Shown here piece by piece: positions 10,104 through 19,594 of a DNA stretch of 64,000 nucleotides. The notes under the pieces are model-generated. The model saw only the letters and a program-made list of their open reading frames with translations, ran no database searches and was not told where the DNA came from. Within the stretch, counting starts at the first letter, position 1, and each line of letters opens with the position of its first letter. A program made the translations under genes and the position numbers. Origin of the DNA: Candidatus Abyssobacteria bacterium SURF_5 (GTDB lineage: Bacteria; Abyssobacteria; SURF-5); assembly GCA_003598085.1 (NCBI GenBank), contig QZKU01000042.1, forward strand, positions 1 through 64,000, written 5' to 3'.

Positions 10104-10706
10104 TCAAATTCTCTTTTTCGCTTTTACGCAATACAGGCTTGAATGGGCCGGGTCCGCCGATTTAAAAAGTTCGGGTCCTCTTATTCCGAGGAAGTATTCC
10201 GTTTTTTCCAGTGCGAAGATTTGGGAAATCGCCTGTTCGATGGCTTTCAAGTTCACGTGCCTGATCTTATTGACGTAGGACTCAGGATCCCTCCTTTTCT
10301 GTTTGAAGAAGAACGATTCTGGATTCAGAAGCATAACAAGGATGGTTCCTCCAGGTCTGAGGATCCTCTCGCTTTCGCGGAGCGCTTCAGAATAGTTGTC
10401 TATAAACTGGAGAGACGCCACGTATATTATTGCGTCGAAGCTTGAGCTTTCGATATTAGTCTGCTCCGCTGAGCCCAGCACGGTCCTCACTTGATCGGGA
10501 GCTTGATTCAGAGCTTCTTGAGAAATATCCAGCCCCGTGACGTCAAATCCGTAATGACCAAGCATGCCCTCTATAATCGCTGGTCCACAGCCAACACTCA
10601 GGAGGTTTTTGCAACCGGCTAGTTCTCTCCGGAGATAGTCTACCTCTTGTTGGAAGACGCGCTTCCAAAAGTCGCTTCTGCATGACTCGTAATATGAACT
10701 TGTCAT
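10104..10706 (-). CDS. Class I SAM-dependent methyltransferase
   Basis: The 200-residue protein has the class I methyltransferase fold. Motif I is LLSVGCGPAIIEGML, followed by the acidic VTGLDISQEAL, FDAIIYVASLQF and the ILRPGGTILV strand. The substrate is unknown; the overall layout resembles UbiE/small-molecule methyltransferases. The start overlaps the stop of the CooC remnant as ATGA, so it is probably the last gene of the sigma-54-driven cluster. Confidence 0.85.
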   Translation of the reverse strand: MTSSYYESCRSDFWKRVFQQEVDYLRRELAGCKNLLSVGCGPAIIEGMLGHYGFDVTGLDISQEALNQAPDQVRTVLGSAEQTNIESSSFDAIIYVASLQFIDNYSEALRESERILRPGGTILVMLLNPESFFFKQKRRDPESYVNKIRHVNLKAIEQAISQIFALEKTEYFLGIRGPELFKSADPAHSSLYCVKAKKRI

Positions 10707-10951
10707 CGTACAACCCTTTTACCGTCGTCCTGGTCGCGCGAGTGCCGGCTGAGCAATTTGCCGGTTATCCTTGCCACCTCGGCAGCCGCTGCGCCGTCAA
10801 GATTCAGGCGGCGTCCGGTGAGACAAGAAGATTGGATCTCACAATGAAATCCTACCGTGCCGATGACCGGAATATGCAATTCCGTCAATCTTGCCGCCAC
10901 CGTATTCCCCTGCTCGGCGCTTCCTCCTTTTCCACAGATACATATTTTCAT
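10703..10951 (-). pseudogene. CooC-like ATPase remnant with internal deletion
   Basis: The 82-residue frame starts as the P-loop of a CooC/NifH-like metallo-enzyme maturation ATPase (MKICICGKGGS). After GKGGS it jumps straight to the C-terminal end of that family (IPVIGTVGF, SSCLTGRRLNLDGAAAAEV). The Walker A lysine/serine GKST, the switch regions and the metal-binding cysteines are all gone, which fits a single in-frame deletion of most of a roughly 250-residue gene. It cannot hydrolyse ATP. Translation may persist only to couple the overlapping methyltransferase. The intact form would fit the corrinoid/CO chemistry suggested by the RACo-like neighbour. Confidence 0.6.
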
Positions 10952-11034: not shown

Positions 11035-12732
11035 TTATTTAGCTCCATTTCCCGTAACGAGTTCAAAGGGCCAGGTGACTACTCCGCCGTCCATAAATTT
11101 GGTGTCTTTGAATCCGGCTGCGTCGAGAATTTTGCAGGCCTCATATCCCCTGAGGCTTATCTTGCAAAACGCGATGATTTCCTTATCCTTCGGCAATTCA
11201 TTCAAACGCGTTCTCAATTGGCCGAGTGGAATGAATTTTGTGCCTTTTATGCGCACCTCATCGTATTCATTCTGGTTGCGTACATCAAGGAATACAAAGT
11301 CATCGCCCCTATCGAGCTTTCCCTTTACTGCCAGGGGGGAGATTCCTCTTGCCTCTCCGCACAGCTTATTGCGCATGACATTGATCGCGGTAAGCGCGGG
11401 CCCAATCGGCGAGGAATACGGCGGGGCGTAGCAGAGGTCAAGATTGCCGATGGATTCAGCCGTGGCTCCACCGTTTATGAGAGTTGCAAAGATGTCGGTT
11501 CGCTTGTCGACATCGCCCATGCCGACCACCTGAGCGCCGACCAGTCTGCCGCCCGCTTTCTCGGCCAAAAGTTTTGTGGCGATGAGTTTGGCGCCGGGAT
11601 AGTAATGGGCGCGGTCGGGTATTGGGACGATGACAGTCTCGACATCAAGACCGAGCTTACGGGCGTCTCTCTCGCTGAGTCCGGTTCTTCCGATATTCAT
11701 ATCGAAGGTTTTAAACACCATTGTTCCCAATATGCCAGGAAACGTCTCCGCGCCTCCCGTGACGTTGATGCCAACGATGCGGCCCTGTTTGTTTGCGGTC
11801 GATCCGAGTGGGACAAAGGCAGGCTTTTTCGTGACAAGGTTGTAGGTCTCGACGCAATCGCCGGCCGCGAAGATGTTAGGATCGCACGTTCGCATGTATT
11901 TGTCAACTCGAATAGCGCCGGTCTCGCCCACATCGATGCCGGCTTCTTTAGCGAGTTTCACATTCGGTCTTACGCCGATGCCGAGGACGGCGAGATCGGC
12001 TTTCAGGACTCCTTTTTCCGTGATTACCTGGCTCAGATTGCCGGCATTGTCTCCCTTGAATTCAATTACGCCGTCGGATGTCCTCACCACGACGCCCTTA
12101 TCCTCGAGGTGTCTCCTTACCATGATCGACATTTCATAATCGAGGCCGAGCATTATCTGGTCCATTTTTTCCACGATAGTGGTTTCAACGCCCCGCTCAA
12201 CGAGGGCTTCCGCCGCCTCGAGGCCGATAAAGCCGCCGCCGATAATCACGCCCTTCTTGCCTTTGCCGACGAGACCGCGGAGCGCTTCGGCATCTTCTAT
12301 GGATTGCAGTGTATGGATGTTCTTCAGGTTGATTCCTGGAATAGGAGGCACAACCGCTTGAGCGCCGGTAGCCAGAAGGAGCTTGTCATATGGGAGAGAG
12401 AAGCCTTCGCCGGTATCCAGGTTTTTCCCCACGACTTTCTTGTTTTTGCGGTCGATGGAGGTGACTTCCTGATGCGTGATGATTTCCACTTCCTTCATCT
12501 TGAGGAAAAATTCCGGGGTCCGGGGTATCCCGATGATATTCGAGTAAAGAGCCTCCTGCTTTTGAATCGCTCCCGCGACATAATAGGGGAGCCCGCAAGC
12601 GGCGAACGAGATGAAGGTGCCTTTCTCGAGGACGGTGATTTTGATGCCGGGGTTGCGGCGGCGTGCCTTTGAAGCAGCCTTGAGGCCTGCGGCGCTGGCG
12701 CCGATCACGATGAAATTCATTGTCTCGCCCAT
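11035..12732 (-). CDS. CoA-disulfide reductase-type flavoprotein with rhodanese domain
   Basis: This 565-residue fusion starts with a pyridine-nucleotide-disulfide oxidoreductase (FAD motif IVIGASAAGLKAA, NAD(P) motif GVIIGGGFIGLEAA, FAD motif NIFAAGDCVE). It carries the single redox Cys of CoA-disulfide reductases and NADH:polysulfide/peroxidase enzymes in SFAACGLPYY (Cys46). A rhodanese domain occupies about residues 465-560 with catalytic Cys523 in FCKISLRGYEA. The domain order matches CoADR-Rhd, which reduces CoA disulfides, CoA persulfide or polysulfide. GGAGGAG precedes the start. It follows the RACo-like gene by 39 bases, suggesting thiol/persulfide chemistry coupled to corrinoid or Fe-S metabolism. 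Confidence 0.9.
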   Translation of the reverse strand: MGETMNFIVIGASAAGLKAASKARRRNPGIKITVLEKGTFISFAACGLPYYVAGAIQKQEALYSNIIGIPRTPEFFLKMKEVEIITHQEVTSIDRKNKKVVGKNLDTGEGFSLPYDKLLLATGAQAVVPPIPGINLKNIHTLQSIEDAEALRGLVGKGKKGVIIGGGFIGLEAAEALVERGVETTIVEKMDQIMLGLDYEMSIMVRRHLEDKGVVVRTSDGVIEFKGDNAGNLSQVITEKGVLKADLAVLGIGVRPNVKLAKEAGIDVGETGAIRVDKYMRTCDPNIFAAGDCVETYNLVTKKPAFVPLGSTANKQGRIVGINVTGGAETFPGILGTMVFKTFDMNIGRTGLSERDARKLGLDVETVIVPIPDRAHYYPGAKLIATKLLAEKAGGRLVGAQVVGMGDVDKRTDIFATLINGGATAESIGNLDLCYAPPYSSPIGPALTAINVMRNKLCGEARGISPLAVKGKLDRGDDFVFLDVRNQNEYDEVRIKGTKFIPLGQLRTRLNELPKDKEIIAFCKISLRGYEACKILDAAGFKDTKFMDGGVVTWPFELVTGNGAK

Positions 12733-12771: not shown

Positions 12772-14862
12772 TCACGAAATGGTTGCATTCTTTGCTGATG
12801 AGAACAACTGCAAATTTGTATGCGGCAAGAACAGCGCCGCCGAATACTGGTCCATGAATTCCTGTGAAGTGCTGAAGTCGAGATAGGTCATCATGCCGGC
12901 TATTCGATTACATTCGTCTCTGCTTTCATGGCAGAGCAATGCCTGGTAGGCCCCCTGTACGGCGCTGTTGCCAAGATATTGAAATTTGGATTCTTCCAAA
13001 TCGGGCAACATGCCGATCGCGATTGCCTGCGGTATCTTGATGTATCGGCCGAATCCGCCGGCGATCATGATCCGGTCGATCTGTGCGAACGTCAGACCCA
13101 CGCGGGCCAGCATTGTGGCAAAGCCGGCATAAATAGCGGCTTTACTTCGCATCAGGGTATCGACGTCGGCCTGTGTGAACACGATATCCTCTCCCAGCTC
13201 TGACTCTTCAGCCGGTACCAGCACATACTCCGGCCCGGCCTCGCTCTGCCTGACGTATTGGTTGGCGCCTCTTTCCTTGAACCTTCCTCTGCGGTCTATA
13301 ATGTCGGCTTGAAGCATGGCGGAGAGCAGGTCGATCATGCCGGAGCCGCATATGCCTCTCGGGGGCAGGTCTCCATTGACCTCATAGGTCGGCGCGAGGG
13401 TAAGCGGGTCGATGTTGATGTGTTCGATGGCGCCTTCTTCCGCCCGCATGCCGCAGCGGATTCCACCGCCCTCGAAAGCCGGTCCTGCGGAGCATGAGGC
13501 CGTCATCAGCCAATCGGAATTGCCGAGGACAATTTCGCCATTGGTGCCAACGTCTATAAACAGAGTCGTGCGGGGGTCCCTTTGCATGCCTGAGGCGAGG
13601 ACACCCGCCACGATGTCGCCTCCCACGTACGCCGTATTTCCGGGAACAATATGAACTATGGCGTTTGGACAGTAGCCCAGCCCGATATCCTTTGAGCGCA
13701 GTACCGAAAATGTCGTCGCGGTAGGCAGGTACGGCTCGCGTCGGATGTATTGAGGGTCGATTTGCAGCAGGAGGTGCATCATCGTGGTATTTCCTGCGAT
13801 CGAGATGCTGTCGATATCGGCGGGCGCGACGGCTGCAGACGTTACGATTTCCCTCAGCAATCCCTCCAAAGTGCCCACAATGAGCCGATGCAGCTTCTCC
13901 TGACAGCCGGGAGTGCTTTGCGTGCAAACGATTCGCGAGATGACATCTTCTCCATGCGCCACCTGCGCATTCTGGCTTGAAGCGGCTGCCACCACTCTTC
14001 CGTCCGACAGATTGACAAGATAGGTAACGACAGAAGTTGTGCCGACATCCACCGCAACTCCGTAGCCGTTACCCGAGGTCGTGGTATTTTTCAGATCGAC
14101 TATTTCGCAAACGCCATCGTCTTTGTACAGGCTGATTGTGGCGCGCCAATCGTTTTTTCTCAGCGTTTCGCCAAGCTTGCGGATTACCGGCAAATCGACG
14201 CGAAAGAAAGTTGAGAGATGCCCCGCCCTTCGCAGCGCCCGGACCACCCTATCGAGGTCGCTAGAGGAATCCTCAATTGTAGGCGGCGGCAAATCAACCG
14301 AGGCGCGTTCGGTCAACGGGCTCAATTTTGTTGACGAGCTGCACAGGACGGATGTAACGGCGGCGGCATCGTCAAGGATTTTTATCTTGCGTCGCTGGGA
14401 TTGCGGTGGTATGGTGACCGTGAGGTCATCTGTTACCCGGGTGGTGCATGCCAGCGTGAAACCGTCTTTGATTTCGTCAGGGGTGAGATAGGGATTGGAT
14501 GCAGAAAGATATTTTCCCCCTTCGATACGAACCTTGCATTTGCCACAGATTCCGCGACCGCCGCATGAGTTGTTCAGGAAAAGTCCCGCCTCCTCAACTC
14601 CCTCAAAGATAGTTTTCCCCTCTTGGACAACCACTTCCTTTTCATAAGGCAGGAATTTCACCTTGAAGCTCTTGGCTGACTCTTTCTGGAGAGGGGCAAG
14701 TTCGGCTTCCCCGTACTTTTGCATCTCCCATATGATGCAACCGGTTCTGTACTTGCAATAGATATCCGGGTTGCGGCATGTCAGGCACTCCTGGCATAGA
14801 TAGACATCGTCTTTCTGGCAGCGAAAGGTCGCTTCCCGGTCGGGATGATTACTGCACTTCAT
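12772..14862 (-). CDS. RACo-like reductive activator of corrinoid proteins
   Basis: The 696-residue protein has a [2Fe-2S] ferredoxin domain (cysteines 100, 106, 109 and 139 in NNSCGGRGICGKCK and LACTT), a linker, and an ASKHA ATPase-type domain from about residue 265 (VAVDVGTTSVVTYLVNL, IAGNTTMMHLLL, FIDVGTNGEIVLG, GGFGRYI). This is the layout of RACo/AcsV/RamA-type ATP-dependent activators that reduce Co(II) corrinoid to Co(I). It carries an extra N-terminal Cys/His-rich zinc-binding module (residues 3-42, B-box-like) that typical RACo lacks. AGGAGGT precedes the start. No corrinoid protein or methyltransferase of that system is in the window, so the client is unknown. Confidence 0.88.
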   Translation of the reverse strand: MKCSNHPDREATFRCQKDDVYLCQECLTCRNPDIYCKYRTGCIIWEMQKYGEAELAPLQKESAKSFKVKFLPYEKEVVVQEGKTIFEGVEEAGLFLNNSCGGRGICGKCKVRIEGGKYLSASNPYLTPDEIKDGFTLACTTRVTDDLTVTIPPQSQRRKIKILDDAAAVTSVLCSSSTKLSPLTERASVDLPPPTIEDSSSDLDRVVRALRRAGHLSTFFRVDLPVIRKLGETLRKNDWRATISLYKDDGVCEIVDLKNTTTSGNGYGVAVDVGTTSVVTYLVNLSDGRVVAAASSQNAQVAHGEDVISRIVCTQSTPGCQEKLHRLIVGTLEGLLREIVTSAAVAPADIDSISIAGNTTMMHLLLQIDPQYIRREPYLPTATTFSVLRSKDIGLGYCPNAIVHIVPGNTAYVGGDIVAGVLASGMQRDPRTTLFIDVGTNGEIVLGNSDWLMTASCSAGPAFEGGGIRCGMRAEEGAIEHINIDPLTLAPTYEVNGDLPPRGICGSGMIDLLSAMLQADIIDRRGRFKERGANQYVRQSEAGPEYVLVPAEESELGEDIVFTQADVDTLMRSKAAIYAGFATMLARVGLTFAQIDRIMIAGGFGRYIKIPQAIAIGMLPDLEESKFQYLGNSAVQGAYQALLCHESRDECNRIAGMMTYLDFSTSQEFMDQYSAALFLPHTNLQLFSSAKNATIS

Positions 14863-14958
14863 CGCGCTACTACCTCCTGGTCAATGCGGTTTTTAGTGTA
14901 GCCCCTAACTCTTTACATTTGGCATTGGGCAGTCCCGATTCTTTTGCGGCTTTGAAAG

Positions 14959-16227
14959 TCATATCTTCCGGGTTCCGACTTTTTCCAGCGCAAGCCAGAC
15001 TTCGACGATATTGGCGGGGCGACGTTTTTCGTTTTTTTCGAGCATTTTCACGATAATCGAATCCAGCTGCCCTGGAAGCGACGGAATAAGGTGCGATGGG
15101 AAGGGTGGACGGAAATGAGGCGAGAGCACTCTCGCCACCAAATCGCCCTTGCCCGAGCGCCCATTCCAGGGAGAATGACTTGTGAACAGCTCATACAGAG
15201 TGACCCCCAGACAAAAAATGTCAGAGCGAAACGTCGCTTTTCTCTTAATGATCTGTTCCGGCGACATGTACCTCATGTCGCCCCCCTTCACATGGGCTGA
15301 GGAGTGGAAGATCCCCTTTATGAGGCTCGCCAATGCGAAGTCTGAAATTTTGACCTCCTTGTGGACCGGGAAAAAAGGCCCCATCATGTCCCGGGATACC
15401 AGGATGTTTTCCGGCTTGATCTGGCCGTGGACAATCCTTTGGTCGTGAAGATAGATGAGGCCCTCGCATATTCTCTGGGCCGTATCCATCAGGTGGTTGA
15501 AGCGGATATGTGGGTCGGGGAAGGACTTCGCGCTTTCCTCGATGCAATGCCGGAGATTGAACCCGTTCATATACTCCGTCACGAGATATCCGAATTTGCC
15601 ATCTGTGAAGAAATCATAGCATTGGAGGATGTTCTTGTGTTTCAGGGGACAATGAAACTCGGGCTCCGAATATTTTCTTCCGGAGCCGGCATGAGCCTTT
15701 GGGAGAAGGACTTTTATCGTCACCATCCTTGATGTTGGTCTGTGGATGGCGCGGTACACCTTGCTTGACTGGCTTTCGCCTATTTGCTCGCAGAACTCGT
15801 AATCCCTGTTCATTATTTCGAATTTGTCAGGACTTTTCGGGAATCCCGCCGAGCTGTGCGCTGCGGCATACTCAGAAGCCTTTCGCAGTAAGTCCTTCCA
15901 ATCGACAACACCAACAATGCGTTCTCTCACCGTACCGTCCACGATGATTAATAAGGTAGGCACAGCCGCTATATCGTATGTAGTCGCTATCAAAGGATAT
16001 TTCTCAACATTCACCCTCACGATATTGAGGCTGCTCGAGAGTTTTTCACGGAGGGCATCAAGCATCGGCAGCATCCGTTTACATGGAACGCATGATGGTG
16101 TGAAACACGCAACGAAAACGGGTCTGCCCGAGCAGGAACACAGCCTTTGCAGTTCTTGGTCTGATAGTTGCGGGATGCCCGGCAAAGCAATACCCTCCTC
16201 CGAATCCGCACATGTCCGATTCGCCAT
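14959..16227 (-). CDS. Thioredoxin-Ser/Thr pseudokinase fusion
   Basis: The 422-residue protein joins a thioredoxin domain (about 15-125; active site SCVPC with Cys46 and Cys49, cis-Pro in AVPT at residue 90) to a protein-kinase fold (about 140-415). The kinase has a degraded glycine loop (IGESQSSKV) and the ATP-binding Lys172 in VTIKV. Its catalytic loop reads HGQIKPEN instead of HRDLKPEN, so the catalytic aspartate is Gln269. DFG is DFA (296-298), SPE stands for APE, and the F-helix Asp in RSDIFCLGV is kept. It is most likely a pseudokinase using the fold for binding or scaffolding, possibly redox-gated by the thioredoxin. It follows a small lipoprotein gene under a sigma-54 promoter. Confidence 0.9.
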   Translation of the reverse strand: MANRTCADSEEGIALPGIPQLSDQELQRLCSCSGRPVFVACFTPSCVPCKRMLPMLDALREKLSSSLNIVRVNVEKYPLIATTYDIAAVPTLLIIVDGTVRERIVGVVDWKDLLRKASEYAAAHSSAGFPKSPDKFEIMNRDYEFCEQIGESQSSKVYRAIHRPTSRMVTIKVLLPKAHAGSGRKYSEPEFHCPLKHKNILQCYDFFTDGKFGYLVTEYMNGFNLRHCIEESAKSFPDPHIRFNHLMDTAQRICEGLIYLHDQRIVHGQIKPENILVSRDMMGPFFPVHKEVKISDFALASLIKGIFHSSAHVKGGDMRYMSPEQIIKRKATFRSDIFCLGVTLYELFTSHSPWNGRSGKGDLVARVLSPHFRPPFPSHLIPSLPGQLDSIIVKMLEKNEKRRPANIVEVWLALEKVGTRKI

Positions 16228-16284: not shown

Positions 16285-16476
16285 TCAGTATCCAAAGGGG
16301 GTGTCATAGAGCCACCAATCGGGCTGGTCAGCCGAAGCCGTTTGAACTTGAGACTGGCTCGAATCCCCCATTCCCAACTTCTCGATTTTAGAATTGGTTC
16401 TTGTTGTCGCGCCGCAAGCCATGAAGCTCGCCGTTATTCCCAACACGATTATGAGGAGCAGCAATCTTCTCTTCAT
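16285..16476 (-). CDS. Small lipoprotein
   Basis: This 63-residue protein has a type II signal peptide: positive start (MKRR), a Leu/Ile-rich core and lipobox FMAC with Cys21. The mature part is 43 residues, Ser/Gln-rich, ending WWLYDTPFGY. GGAGG lies eight bases upstream of the ATG. It is the first gene after the sigma-54 promoter and 57 bases before the thioredoxin-pseudokinase gene. I do not recognise a family. Confidence 0.75.
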   Translation of the reverse strand: MKRRLLLLIIVLGITASFMACGATTRTNSKIEKLGMGDSSQSQVQTASADQPDWWLYDTPFGY

Positions 16477-16544
16477 GACGATGCCTCCTTCATGCGTTTC
16501 TTTCTGCTTCCCGGGGTACCGTAATATTCATGCATCATAAATTG

Positions 16545-16559
16545 GCAATACACGTGCCA
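16545..16559 (-). promoter_or_regulatory. Sigma-54 (-24/-12) promoter
   Basis: The minus strand reads TGGCACGTGTATTGC, matching the sigma-54 consensus TGGCAC-N5-TTGC at every defined base, with the GG and GC elements at the required spacing. It lies about 70 bases upstream of the lipoprotein start at 16476 in the correct orientation. It should drive the lipoprotein, thioredoxin-pseudokinase, RACo-like and CoADR-rhodanese genes. Confidence 0.85.
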
Positions 16560-16667
16560 AAAAGCCGGGAGAAAAGAAGAAGGGATATGTGCGACATAAC
16601 TATTTGATAGACAGAACCTTATGATTTGACTCCGATTCTGATGCTGTGGCATGCGGAAAATAGACAG

Positions 16668-16681
16668 CGTTACATGTAACG
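16668..16681. promoter_or_regulatory. Palindromic upstream activator site 1
   Basis: CGTTACATGTAACG is a perfect 14-base palindrome about 110 bases upstream of the sigma-54 promoter, a normal position for an enhancer-binding protein dimer. Confidence 0.7.
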
Positions 16682-16701
16682 ATTAAGCTTTGCAATGCTA
16701 T

Positions 16702-16715
16702 CGTTGCATGTTACG
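16702..16715. promoter_or_regulatory. Palindromic upstream activator site 2
   Basis: CGTTGCATGTTACG is a two-mismatch copy of site 1. Its centre is 34 bases away, about three helical turns, and it overlaps the stop codon of the sigma-54 activator gene. Two sites on one face of the helix would let activator dimers bind cooperatively. Confidence 0.65.
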
Positions 16716-18126
16716 GTTCTGCGGAAGGATTCTCGTGAAGGCCATATTTCTTGATGTTGCGCCACACCGTAGTGCGCGTGACGCCGAGGAGTCTGGCCGC
16801 TTTAGCTTTGTTCCATCCGGCTTTGGCGAGTGCGCTTTGGAGTGTTTCCCTGGTGATGGTGCCGGTAACTGAGGGGGTGCCGGAATCGGTTGCGTGGCAA
16901 ACAGGGCACGGCGAAATCTCTATGGGGAGAAGGTCCGGCGTGATGATCCTGCTTTTGGCGAGCACGAAGGCATGTTCGATCGCATTTTCAAGCTCGCGAA
17001 TGTTACCGGGCCACGCGTATGACATCAGGGTTCGAAGTGCGTCGGGATTTATTCCCCCGACAGGTTTCCCGGTCTGTTGGCGGAATTTCTGTATGAAGTG
17101 TTCAACCAGAAGAGGGATATCGTCTTTTCGTTCGGATAGAGGGGGAAGAAAGAGTGATACGACCTTGAGGCGATAATAGAGGTCGTCCCGAAAGGTTCCC
17201 TCTTTCATGAGTTGTCTGAGGTCCTGGTGCGTGGCGGCGATGATGCGGACGTCTACATGAAGGGGCTTGATATCTCCGACCCGTTCTATCACTTTCTCCT
17301 GGAGTGCGCGGAGCAGTTTCACCTGCACATTGAGAGAAATATCTCCTATTTCATCCAGGAAAAGGGTGCCGCCATTTGCCAGTTCGAAGCGTCCAATTTT
17401 ATCGCGGATGGCGCCAGTAAAAGCGCCGCGGACATGGCCGAACAATTCGCTTTCGAGCAGATTTTCCGAGAGGGCGGCGCAATTCAGCTTGACGAAGGGA
17501 CCGTCCGCGCGGAGGCTCTTGAAATGCAGGGCGCTGGCAACGAGTTCCTTGCCGGTTCCACTTTCGCCGAAGATGAGGACGGATGCGGATGTGGGCGCCA
17601 CGTCTTCAATGAGGTTGTAAACCTCCTGCATGCGCGCGTCCTTGCCGATGATACCCTCGAATTTGTGGCGTTCCCTCAGCTCTCTGCGGAGGAGGCGGAC
17701 TTCCTCTTGGGCCCGTTTAAGGTTTGTTATATCGGTCAGGTTTTCGACTCCGCCGATGATGTTTCCGTTTTTGTCCCTAAGCACTCGCGCATTTTTCAGG
17801 AGAGTCACGAAGTGTCCGTCTTTGGTTCGGATGGTGCACTCGTTGTTAGAGACCTCGCCTTTTTCAAATAATCCACAACTGCGGATGCCGTCAACGCAGT
17901 TGGTGCCGAGACAATTATCTCCCTCAAGAATGTCGCAGTTTTTTCCGATGACATCTTCTGCGGTGTAGCCGGTGATTCTTTCGGCACCCTTATTCCAGAA
18001 CGTAATGGTTCCATCGAGATCGACGGTGAACAAGCCATCGGCCATGGTGTCGCAGATGACCTCGAGCAAGGGAGGTCGCAGCGAGGCGGCTGCCTTTTTG
18101 TTTGTGTTATCTTGTCTGACTTTCAC
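16711..18126 (-). CDS. PAS-type sigma-54 activator (NtrC family)
   Basis: This 471-residue regulator has an N-terminal PAS domain (about 20-135), an AAA+ sigma-54-interaction domain (about 160-395) and a Fis-type helix-turn-helix (about 425-465, [20 protein letters not shown]). The AAA+ part is intact: Walker A GESGTGKE, the GAFTGA loop that contacts sigma-54, Walker B LFLDEIGD. It has no receiver domain. The PAS domain contains a cluster of cysteines (64, 72, 77, 84, 97), suggesting redox, metal or cluster sensing rather than phosphorylation. It lies directly upstream of a sigma-54 promoter with two palindromes on the same strand, which it very probably controls. Confidence 0.92.
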
Positions 18127-18370
18127 GGGAAAACCTTCGCGACAGGTTTGGGTCTTTCGTGCTCAAGAGCATGTTACCATATCTCATTCACCGTTTCAAT
18201 GAAGTCGAGACCAAGGCCTTTCTCTCCGGTAAGAACTCTGATAGAGGGCCGGGGAAAGGAATGTTAAGTTTTAAGTAGGGAGGAAAAACAAGGGTCCAGA
18301 GAATGTGCAGCGAGAGACTCTATCAAGAATCCCGTCGCCCGGCGGGTTTTGCAGGAGAAGGAGGAATCGC

Positions 18371-19594
18371 ATGGAATATATAGATCTTATAACGCTCGAT
18401 GATTTGAGGATACTTGCGGAAAAACGAGAGGAATACTGCGTGTCGCTGTACATGCCGATGCAGCGAATGGCGAAGGAAACGCGGCAGAATCCTATCCTCT
18501 TGAAGAACCTGATAGGAAAAGCGGAGGAAGAATTAATCGCGCTCGGGATGCGACGCCCGGAGGCAGGCGGTTTTCTCAAAAAGGCTCGTTCTTACTTAGG
18601 TGAAGGGCCGTTTTGGCAGCATCAGAGCGATGGGTTGGCAATGTTTATCACCCGCGACGACACTCGTGCGTTTCGAGTACCGGTTCCCTTTACCGATCTG
18701 GTTGTAGTGACCGATCGATTTCACCTCAAGCCCATGTTGGCGCTGTTCACCGGCGATGGGCGTTACTATGTGCTTGCCCTGAGCCAGAATGAAGCGCGTT
18801 TGTTTCACTGCACGCGTTATTCAGCCCACGAGGTGCGTGTTGATGGGATGCCCAGAGGGCTTGCGGATGCTTTGAAATACGACGTTCTGGAAAAGCATCT
18901 TCAATTCCACACGCGAACGCCGGCGATACAGGGAGGCGGCCGGGCTTTTTCATCGGGCGCGAAAGAGGGCAAGAGACCGGCGATTTTTCACGGCCACGGC
19001 TCCGGAACGGATGATGAGAAGGACCGGATCATGCAGTACTTTCTGCAGGTGGATCGCATCCTTCAAAAGGTGCTGTACAGAGATCAGGCGCCATTGGTAC
19101 TGGCGGGCGTGGAGTATCTGTTTTCCATCTATCGGGCGGCCAATAGCTATCAGTACCTGCTTGATGATGGGGTCGGTGGAAACCCGGAGATATTGAAACC
19201 TGAAGAGCTGCGGCAGCAGGCGTGGGCAGTGGTTGCACCCCATTTTTCCGAGACCCAGGCTAAGGCCGGCGAGCGATTCATGCAGGAACTGGGGACGGGG
19301 CACGCGTCAAAGGATATCAAGGAGATTCTTCGGGGTGCGTCACAGGGGCGGGTGGACACGCTACGTCTCTGGCTTGGGGGCCGCTGGGAATGTAAGTTTG
19401 TACCGGTTGGCTTGCAGGTTTGGGGCGTTTTCACCAATGGAGGGGTGCACGTGCACGAGAAGGAAGAGCCGGGCGATGAGGACCTGCTTGATGTTGCCGC
19501 CATCCAGACAGTGCTCAATGGCGGGACAGTGTATGCGGTGAAGCCGGAAGAGGTGCCGGGCGGTTCGCCTCTGGCGGCCATTTTCAGATACTGA
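18371..19594 (+). CDS. Bacterial eRF1-like (BaeRF) family protein
   Basis: The 407-residue protein resembles the bacterial archaeo-eukaryotic release factor (BaeRF) family. It has an alpha/beta N-terminal part (YCVSLYMPM), a middle domain (YYVLALSQNEARLFHCTRYSAHEV), a flexible Gly/His-rich loop (about 195-230) where eRF1 carries its GGQ tip, and a C-terminal RNase-H-like half (VLAGVEYLFSIYRAAN). A true GGQ is absent; QGGGR stands near its place. Family members are thought to act on ribosomes, some as hibernation-type factors, but this one is uncharacterised. AAGGAGGA six bases upstream fixes the start. Confidence 0.75.
   Translation: MEYIDLITLDDLRILAEKREEYCVSLYMPMQRMAKETRQNPILLKNLIGKAEEELIALGMRRPEAGGFLKKARSYLGEGPFWQHQSDGLAMFITRDDTRAFRVPVPFTDLVVVTDRFHLKPMLALFTGDGRYYVLALSQNEARLFHCTRYSAHEVRVDGMPRGLADALKYDVLEKHLQFHTRTPAIQGGGRAFSSGAKEGKRPAIFHGHGSGTDDEKDRIMQYFLQVDRILQKVLYRDQAPLVLAGVEYLFSIYRAANSYQYLLDDGVGGNPEILKPEELRQQAWAVVAPHFSETQAKAGERFMQELGTGHASKDIKEILRGASQGRVDTLRLWLGGRWECKFVPVGLQVWGVFTNGGVHVHEKEEPGDEDLLDVAAIQTVLNGGTVYAVKPEEVPGGSPLAAIFRY

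Follow-up and report, generated by a model that had tools for sequence, protein, structure and literature searches.

We identified a sigma-54-dependent regulatory circuit in Candidatus Abyssubacteria SURF_5, an uncultured deep-subsurface organism known from a metagenome-assembled genome (5,103,455 bases, 145 contigs). Within the window, which is the whole stretch of 64,000 nucleotides that was analysed, an activator gene, a palindromic array of upstream activating sequences (UAS), a sigma-54 promoter and an operon lie on the same strand and almost certainly form one circuit. The activator (a bEBP, here called EBP) is probably a FisR-like, one-component sigma-54 regulator which senses persulfide or thiol redox and drives an operon for a thioredoxin-pseudokinase, a RACo-like protein and a persulfide-reductase-like enzyme. 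The anatomy of the circuit, its conservation, the recurrence of its layout and the bias among neighbouring genes were read directly from genome sequence, and sigma-54 wiring is thus legible in the DNA of uncultured organisms. To our knowledge, the signal has been established for few one-component sigma-54 activators.

The promoter, TGGCACGTGTATTGCC (16544–16559, minus strand), matches TGGCACRNNNNTTGCW at 15 of 16 positions, and transcription is predicted to start near 16534. It is conserved and carries GG-N10-GC within TGGCAC-N5-TTGC, and TGGCACGTGTATTGC at 16559–16545 (minus strand) has no mismatches and is the sole exact TGGCAC-N5-TTGC in the 64 kb; an earlier note made from this sequence had called the promoter near-perfect. 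That note also described two palindromes upstream, with the activator gene ending at the second, and both were recovered. The proximal palindrome, CGTTACATGTAACG (16668–16681), is a perfect dyad; the distal one, CGTTGCATGTTACG (16702–16715; CGTAACATGCAACG on the minus strand), has two mismatches and holds the EBP stop codon (16713–16711, minus strand). Their centres are 34 bp apart and lie 116 and 150 bp upstream of the −24 T. Two further elements had been overlooked. An extra half-site, CATTGCA (16691–16697), aligns with CGTTGCA in SURF_17 (G002; QZKI01000061.1), the nearest relative, which belongs to a different genus. Between the UAS and the promoter lies an IHF consensus, TATCAAATAGTTA (16597–16609, minus strand), the only perfect match to WATCARNNNNTTR in the 64-kb window. 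The consensus is likewise matched perfectly in SURF_17, at an identical offset; the chance of a perfect match is about 1% per gap. IHF is frequently used at sigma-54 promoters with distant UAS.

The EBP gene (16711–18126, minus strand, GTG start) encodes 471 amino acids, which Pfam divides into PAS, AAA+ and Fis-type helix-turn-helix (HTH) domains. The AAA+ domain (PF00158, 239 bits) has a GESGTGKE Walker A motif and a GAFTGA loop, and the C-terminus is a Fis-type HTH (PF02954), features which place the protein in the NtrC/NifA family of bEBPs. A Response_reg domain was absent in the Pfam scan and PAS occupies the N-terminus, which sets the EBP apart from NtrC in the strict sense and agrees with the earlier description of a receiver-less activator with five clustered PAS cysteines. 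These form the motif C64-x7-C72-x4-C77-x6-C84-x12-C97 (17836–17937, minus strand), in which C64, C72 and C97 were invariant across eight subfamily members and C77 and C84 were present in most (alignment A3). The linker between AAA+ and HTH carries a CPVC motif (C407/C410; 16897–16908, minus strand) that the earlier note did not mention; it is kept in SURF_17 only and is absent from subfamily members outside Abyssubacteria. The EBP is 87–88% identical to its SURF_17 orthologue. Divergent from the EBP gene is a gene for a baeRF-type ribosome hibernation factor (18305–19594), in place of which the SURF_17 EBP has a cation transporter-like neighbour.

All operon genes are on the minus strand. The first encodes a small lipoprotein of 63 amino acids (16285–16476; 62 in the SURF_17 orthologue) with the ribosome-binding site AAGGAGG and a conserved C-terminus, PDWWLYDTPFGY, and without a Pfam match. 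It is followed by a thioredoxin (CVPC) fused to a pseudokinase (14959–16227), in which HRD is replaced by HGQ and DFG by DFA in both SURF_5 and SURF_17. The catalytic Asp and DFG of active protein kinases are thereby lost; paralogous kinases retain them. Thioredoxin and pseudokinase share one open reading frame in SURF_5 and occupy two overlapping frames in SURF_17 (L055 1313–1738 and 409–1332), the only genome in which a contig scan found a thioredoxin-pseudokinase. The earlier note had suggested looking for the palindrome upstream of related genes of this kind, and in SURF_17 it is there.

The RACo-like protein (12772–14862) has an N-terminal Zn-ribbon/B-box-like region followed by 2Fe-2S, linker, middle and ASKHA domains. 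All four RACo/AcsV domains (Fer2, RACo linker, middle, ASKHA) scored above their Pfam cutoffs, and the protein resembles the corrinoid activator RACo/AcsV in these parts (PDB 3zyy, E 2e-158), but it reached 651 bits against an NCBIfam AcsV cutoff of 800 and differs by its extra N-terminal zinc-type domain. This Cys-rich domain of 60 amino acids also occurs as short open reading frames (G000:C26, G001:C231, G002:C20). Elsewhere in the SURF_5 genome there is another RACo-like gene of full length (43% identical). The next gene encodes a CoA-disulfide reductase with a C-terminal rhodanese domain (CoADR-rhodanese; 11035–12732; PF07992, PF02852, PF00581), with active-site cysteines in SFAACGLPYY and CKISLR. 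It combines a PNDOR fold bearing the SFxxCG cysteine with rhodanese, while falling below the NCBIfam CoADR cutoffs. The same fold and Cys-bearing rhodanese domain are found in Npsr (PMC7969121), and by this likeness the window protein is a candidate for the persulfide reductase activity of Npsr. Genes for NifU-like and CGGC proteins are found nearby.

From the operon described in the earlier note, two genes kept in SURF_17 have been deleted. A remnant of about 100 bp (14863–14962, minus strand) is left of a receiver gene, still present in SURF_17 between those for the pseudokinase and RACo; it begins with ATGAC across the kinase stop, as in SURF_17, and probably reflects a gene deletion in SURF_5. 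A CooC/MinD-like ATPase (10703–10951, minus strand) is an internally deleted copy of 82 amino acids that has lost its P-loop, against 269 amino acids in SURF_17. In SURF_17, the receiver gene that follows the pseudokinase runs off the end of contig C21, and contig C92 starts with the same approximately 100 receiver bases before RACo, CoADR-rhodanese and the 269-aa ATPase. Since the two contigs share these bases, the joined SURF_17 order is likely lipoprotein, thioredoxin, pseudokinase, receiver, RACo, CoADR-rhodanese and ATPase. Judged by these remnants, the SURF_5 operon is a reduced version.

The PAS cysteine motif defines a scattered subfamily. A profile of five-cysteine PAS domains was searched against approximately 390 genomes other than SURF_5 and gave eight places at 1e-47 or better before a drop to 1e-32. 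These eight matches include SURF_17 and one G149 fragment at a contig end, and seven of them belong to the profile. The subfamily loci compared here likewise number eight (the window, SURF_17, L155, L156, L157, L160, L162 and L163), of which seven are independent, the SURF_5 and SURF_17 loci not being independent of each other. Identity to the EBP was 55% for L155, 51% for L156 and 50% for L157, with L160, L162 and L163 as variants, and several of the genomes are outside the phylum Abyssubacteria. In a tree built from AAA+/HTH only, the seven five-Cys EBPs that were placed (L162 was not) grouped together with one intruder, and the cysteine motif and the DNA-binding part therefore appear to have travelled together. 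Most PAS-EBP paralogues in three family genomes have another motif, C-x8-C-x3-C, and in several of these, sigma-54-like promoters are preceded by GTTGCA/TGCAAC half-sites. No further subfamily members came to light in the phyla of G315 and G088, because these phyla are tiny, and plasmid searches for annotated or FisR-like homologues returned other PAS-EBPs, mostly near nitrile/nitrate genes.

Layout recurred along with the protein. At least three GTTAC/GTAAC/GTTAAC sites were present beside the EBP in five of eight subfamily loci and in 0 of 33 controls. With a looser half-site pattern, widened after the loci had been inspected, seven of eight loci had a sigma-54 promoter (14–16 of 16) 80–155 bp downstream of at least two half-sites; the best promoter at L157 (12/16) was not convincing. 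The arrangement is tandem in the window, SURF_17, L155 and L160 and divergent in L156, L162 and L163. A perfect IHF consensus was found in six of eight subfamily regions against three of 33 control loci, the latter scanned over a longer stretch (~550 bp). On these sequence comparisons, the same switch recurs in distant bacteria. At L155 (6316–6501, G088), a 61-aa small protein is encoded directly under a 16/16 sigma-54 promoter, with a GTTAAC array and a five-Cys EBP upstream.

Among known regulators, FisR of Cupriavidus pinatubonensis and Acinetobacter baumannii resembles the EBP as a one-component sigma-54 activator with an N-terminal regulatory domain and no receiver, whose promoter and target operon adjoin its gene; FisR responds to persulfide/sulfide (PMC7315123, PMC12170894). 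FisR drives PDO-SQR, whereas the EBP faces the lipoprotein, thioredoxin-pseudokinase, RACo-like and CoADR-rhodanese genes and has no adjacent PDO or SQR. The likeness lies in architecture and gene layout. Li et al. in 2017 reportedly placed the Cupriavidus FisR cysteines at C53, C64 and C71. A. baumannii FisR does not have the Cupriavidus cysteines. The DVU2106/orp regulator of Desulfovibrio vulgaris is also one-component and adjoins its targets, with palindromic sites at −131/−88 and IHF sites between these and its sigma-54 promoters (PMC3897727); unlike the EBP, it controls Mrp/FeMo-co-domain orp genes. EBPs without the five-Cys motif often adjoin FeMo-co-domain, DUF5320 and Mrp-like genes, and these control neighbours resemble the DVU2106 system. 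The best NCBIfam model for the EBP was PrdR (NF041552), a proline-reductase regulator whose PAS-AAA+-HTH aligned over nearly the whole protein, but the score of 397 bits fell short of the 795 required, and no prd genes were seen next to the EBP.

Gene neighbours carry the argument about the signal. Thioredoxin and CoADR-rhodanese lie beside the five-Cys EBP in the window, thioredoxin and CoADR-like genes at L156, thioredoxin and DsrE at L157, an MBL-rhodanese (CstB-like) gene at L160 and rhodanese genes at L163; non-sulfur neighbours were found in two of the seven independent loci (a Kef antiporter and small protein at L155, UspA at L162). Among 112 control open reading frames, the most frequent Pfam families were the FeMo-co domain, DUF5320 and Cys-rich/Fer4, and thioredoxin, rhodanese and DsrE were absent from the 25 families listed, so that each occurs in at most two of the 112. 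FisR (PMC7315123; PMC12170894, citing Li 2017) is a precedent for a sigma-54 EBP activated by sulfane sulfur, and persulfides are reduced by CoADR-rhodanese enzymes (PMC7969121). Given these neighbours, the FisR precedent and this chemistry, we favour, with modest confidence, persulfide or thiol redox as the signal. The earlier suggestion of redox, metal or gas was too broad: the gene neighbourhoods make reactive sulfur or thiol redox the likelier signal, with a metal or Fe-S centre less probable.

The main rival keeps the same circuit but has the PAS domain sense O2/redox, NO or metal through a metal ion or Fe-S cluster bound by its cysteines, with the linker CPVC taking part. A cluster of four or five cysteines at fixed spacing would suit ligation, CPVC sits between AAA+ and HTH, the operon encodes 2Fe-2S and Zn-type proteins, and the NifU-like and CGGC proteins are close by. 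In rhizobial NifA, linker cysteines take part in sensing. However, subfamily members adjoin genes for sulfur transfer and thiol chemistry, not genes for metals or O2, CPVC is not found outside Abyssubacteria and C77 and C84 vary among members, leaving a metal or cluster rather unlikely. Similarly doubtful is a generic redox-stress regulator, for which an oxidant-formed intramolecular disulfide would be the signal and persulfides one trigger among several. Thioredoxin and NAD-disulfide oxidoreductase genes recur, L162 adjoins UspA and, on sequence inspection, G149 appears to adjoin a similar gene; rhodanese, DsrE and MBL-rhodanese genes nonetheless indicate sulfane sulfur specifically.

For the preferred persulfide/thiol reading, we infer the following sequence of events. 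The EBP would dock on the array of half-sites that runs over the stop codon of its gene, and IHF may bend the ~105 bp separating array and promoter such that the AAA+ ring contacts sigma-54-RNA polymerase at −24/−12. The transcript from near 16534 is predicted to span the lipoprotein, thioredoxin-pseudokinase, RACo-like and CoADR-rhodanese genes. Sulfane sulfur (persulfide/polysulfide) or thiol oxidation would join or modify C64, C72 and C97, with or without C77 and C84, and thereby release the ATPase as in FisR activation. Thioredoxin and the NADH-dependent CoADR-rhodanese would then reduce persulfides and undo the stress, while the RACo-like protein might return a corrinoid or another low-potential cofactor to its reduced state. 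The switch thus probably activates sulfur/redox-repair genes under reactive-sulfur or thiol stress. The cysteine motif and the DNA half-site, taken with the bias among neighbouring genes, make the unknown PAS domain the subject of a sulfur/thiol-sensor hypothesis that can be tested across the whole subfamily, and the thioredoxin-pseudokinase and RACo-like protein gain a regulatory context. More tentatively, the five-Cys PAS activators could be an undescribed, widely scattered FisR-equivalent family of sulfane-sulfur/thiol sensors, mostly in uncultured bacteria. In Abyssubacteria, one such activator would have come to govern a thioredoxin linked to a pseudokinase and a RACo-type corrinoid activator, placing low-potential cofactor reactivation under the control of sulfur signalling. 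In the open-access literature searched, neither the five-Cys PAS subfamily nor a fusion of thioredoxin and pseudokinase was found to be described.

Conservation against SURF_17 supports the regulatory DNA itself. The promoter TTGGCACGTGTATTGCC is identical at 17 of 17 bp and the UAS block at 39 of 45 bp, compared to ~46% for the remaining intergenic DNA, and the proximal palindrome lies within a 20-bp block identical in SURF_17. Not one of 20,000 permutations equalled the longest pair of identical runs, of 20 and 17 bp. By this comparison, the identity of promoter and UAS against diverged flanks exceeds chance. The distal dyad has two differences in SURF_17, both in the central dinucleotide and with symmetry retained, and the middle half-site has changed towards the consensus. 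This conservation and the same layout in unrelated genomes give strong support to the wiring from EBP through UAS and sigma-54 to the operon proposed in the earlier note.

It is very improbable that the UAS belongs to another EBP, namely a PAS paralogue using GTTGCA...TGCAAC sites. Such a paralogue exists on contig C15, with CGTTGCATGCAACG between divergent sigma-54 promoters, and the motifs are similar; however, exact CGTTACATGTAACG occurs once per genome in SURF_5 and SURF_17, adjoins its own EBP and is conserved along with it, and G001, without orthologues of the EBP and the thioredoxin part, is also without CGTTACATGTAACG. Least credible of all is a role of the dyads in RNA as a hairpin or terminator ending the EBP mRNA. 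Folding of the SURF_5 stretch is more stable than that of shuffled versions (z −2.5), but this reading was rejected, as SURF_17 takes a different fold (z −1.1), the dyads are not followed by a T-run and the changes preserve half-sites, not a common stem.

A genome-wide palindrome regulon was also rejected. Hits with up to two mismatches were no commoner than with a reversed-pattern control, and the regulon was therefore treated as a single operon; two such hits were one inside dnaE and the C15 paralogue's own site. The latter marks a second sigma-54 circuit (L056 2058–2360, G000:C15), where CGTTGCATGCAACG lies between the sigma-54 promoters of two divergent genes, one multihaem cytochrome-like and one DUF1847; the contig also carries the PAS-EBP paralogue. 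Comparable pairings of promoter and half-sites were observed in SURF_17 (L092) and G001 (L097).
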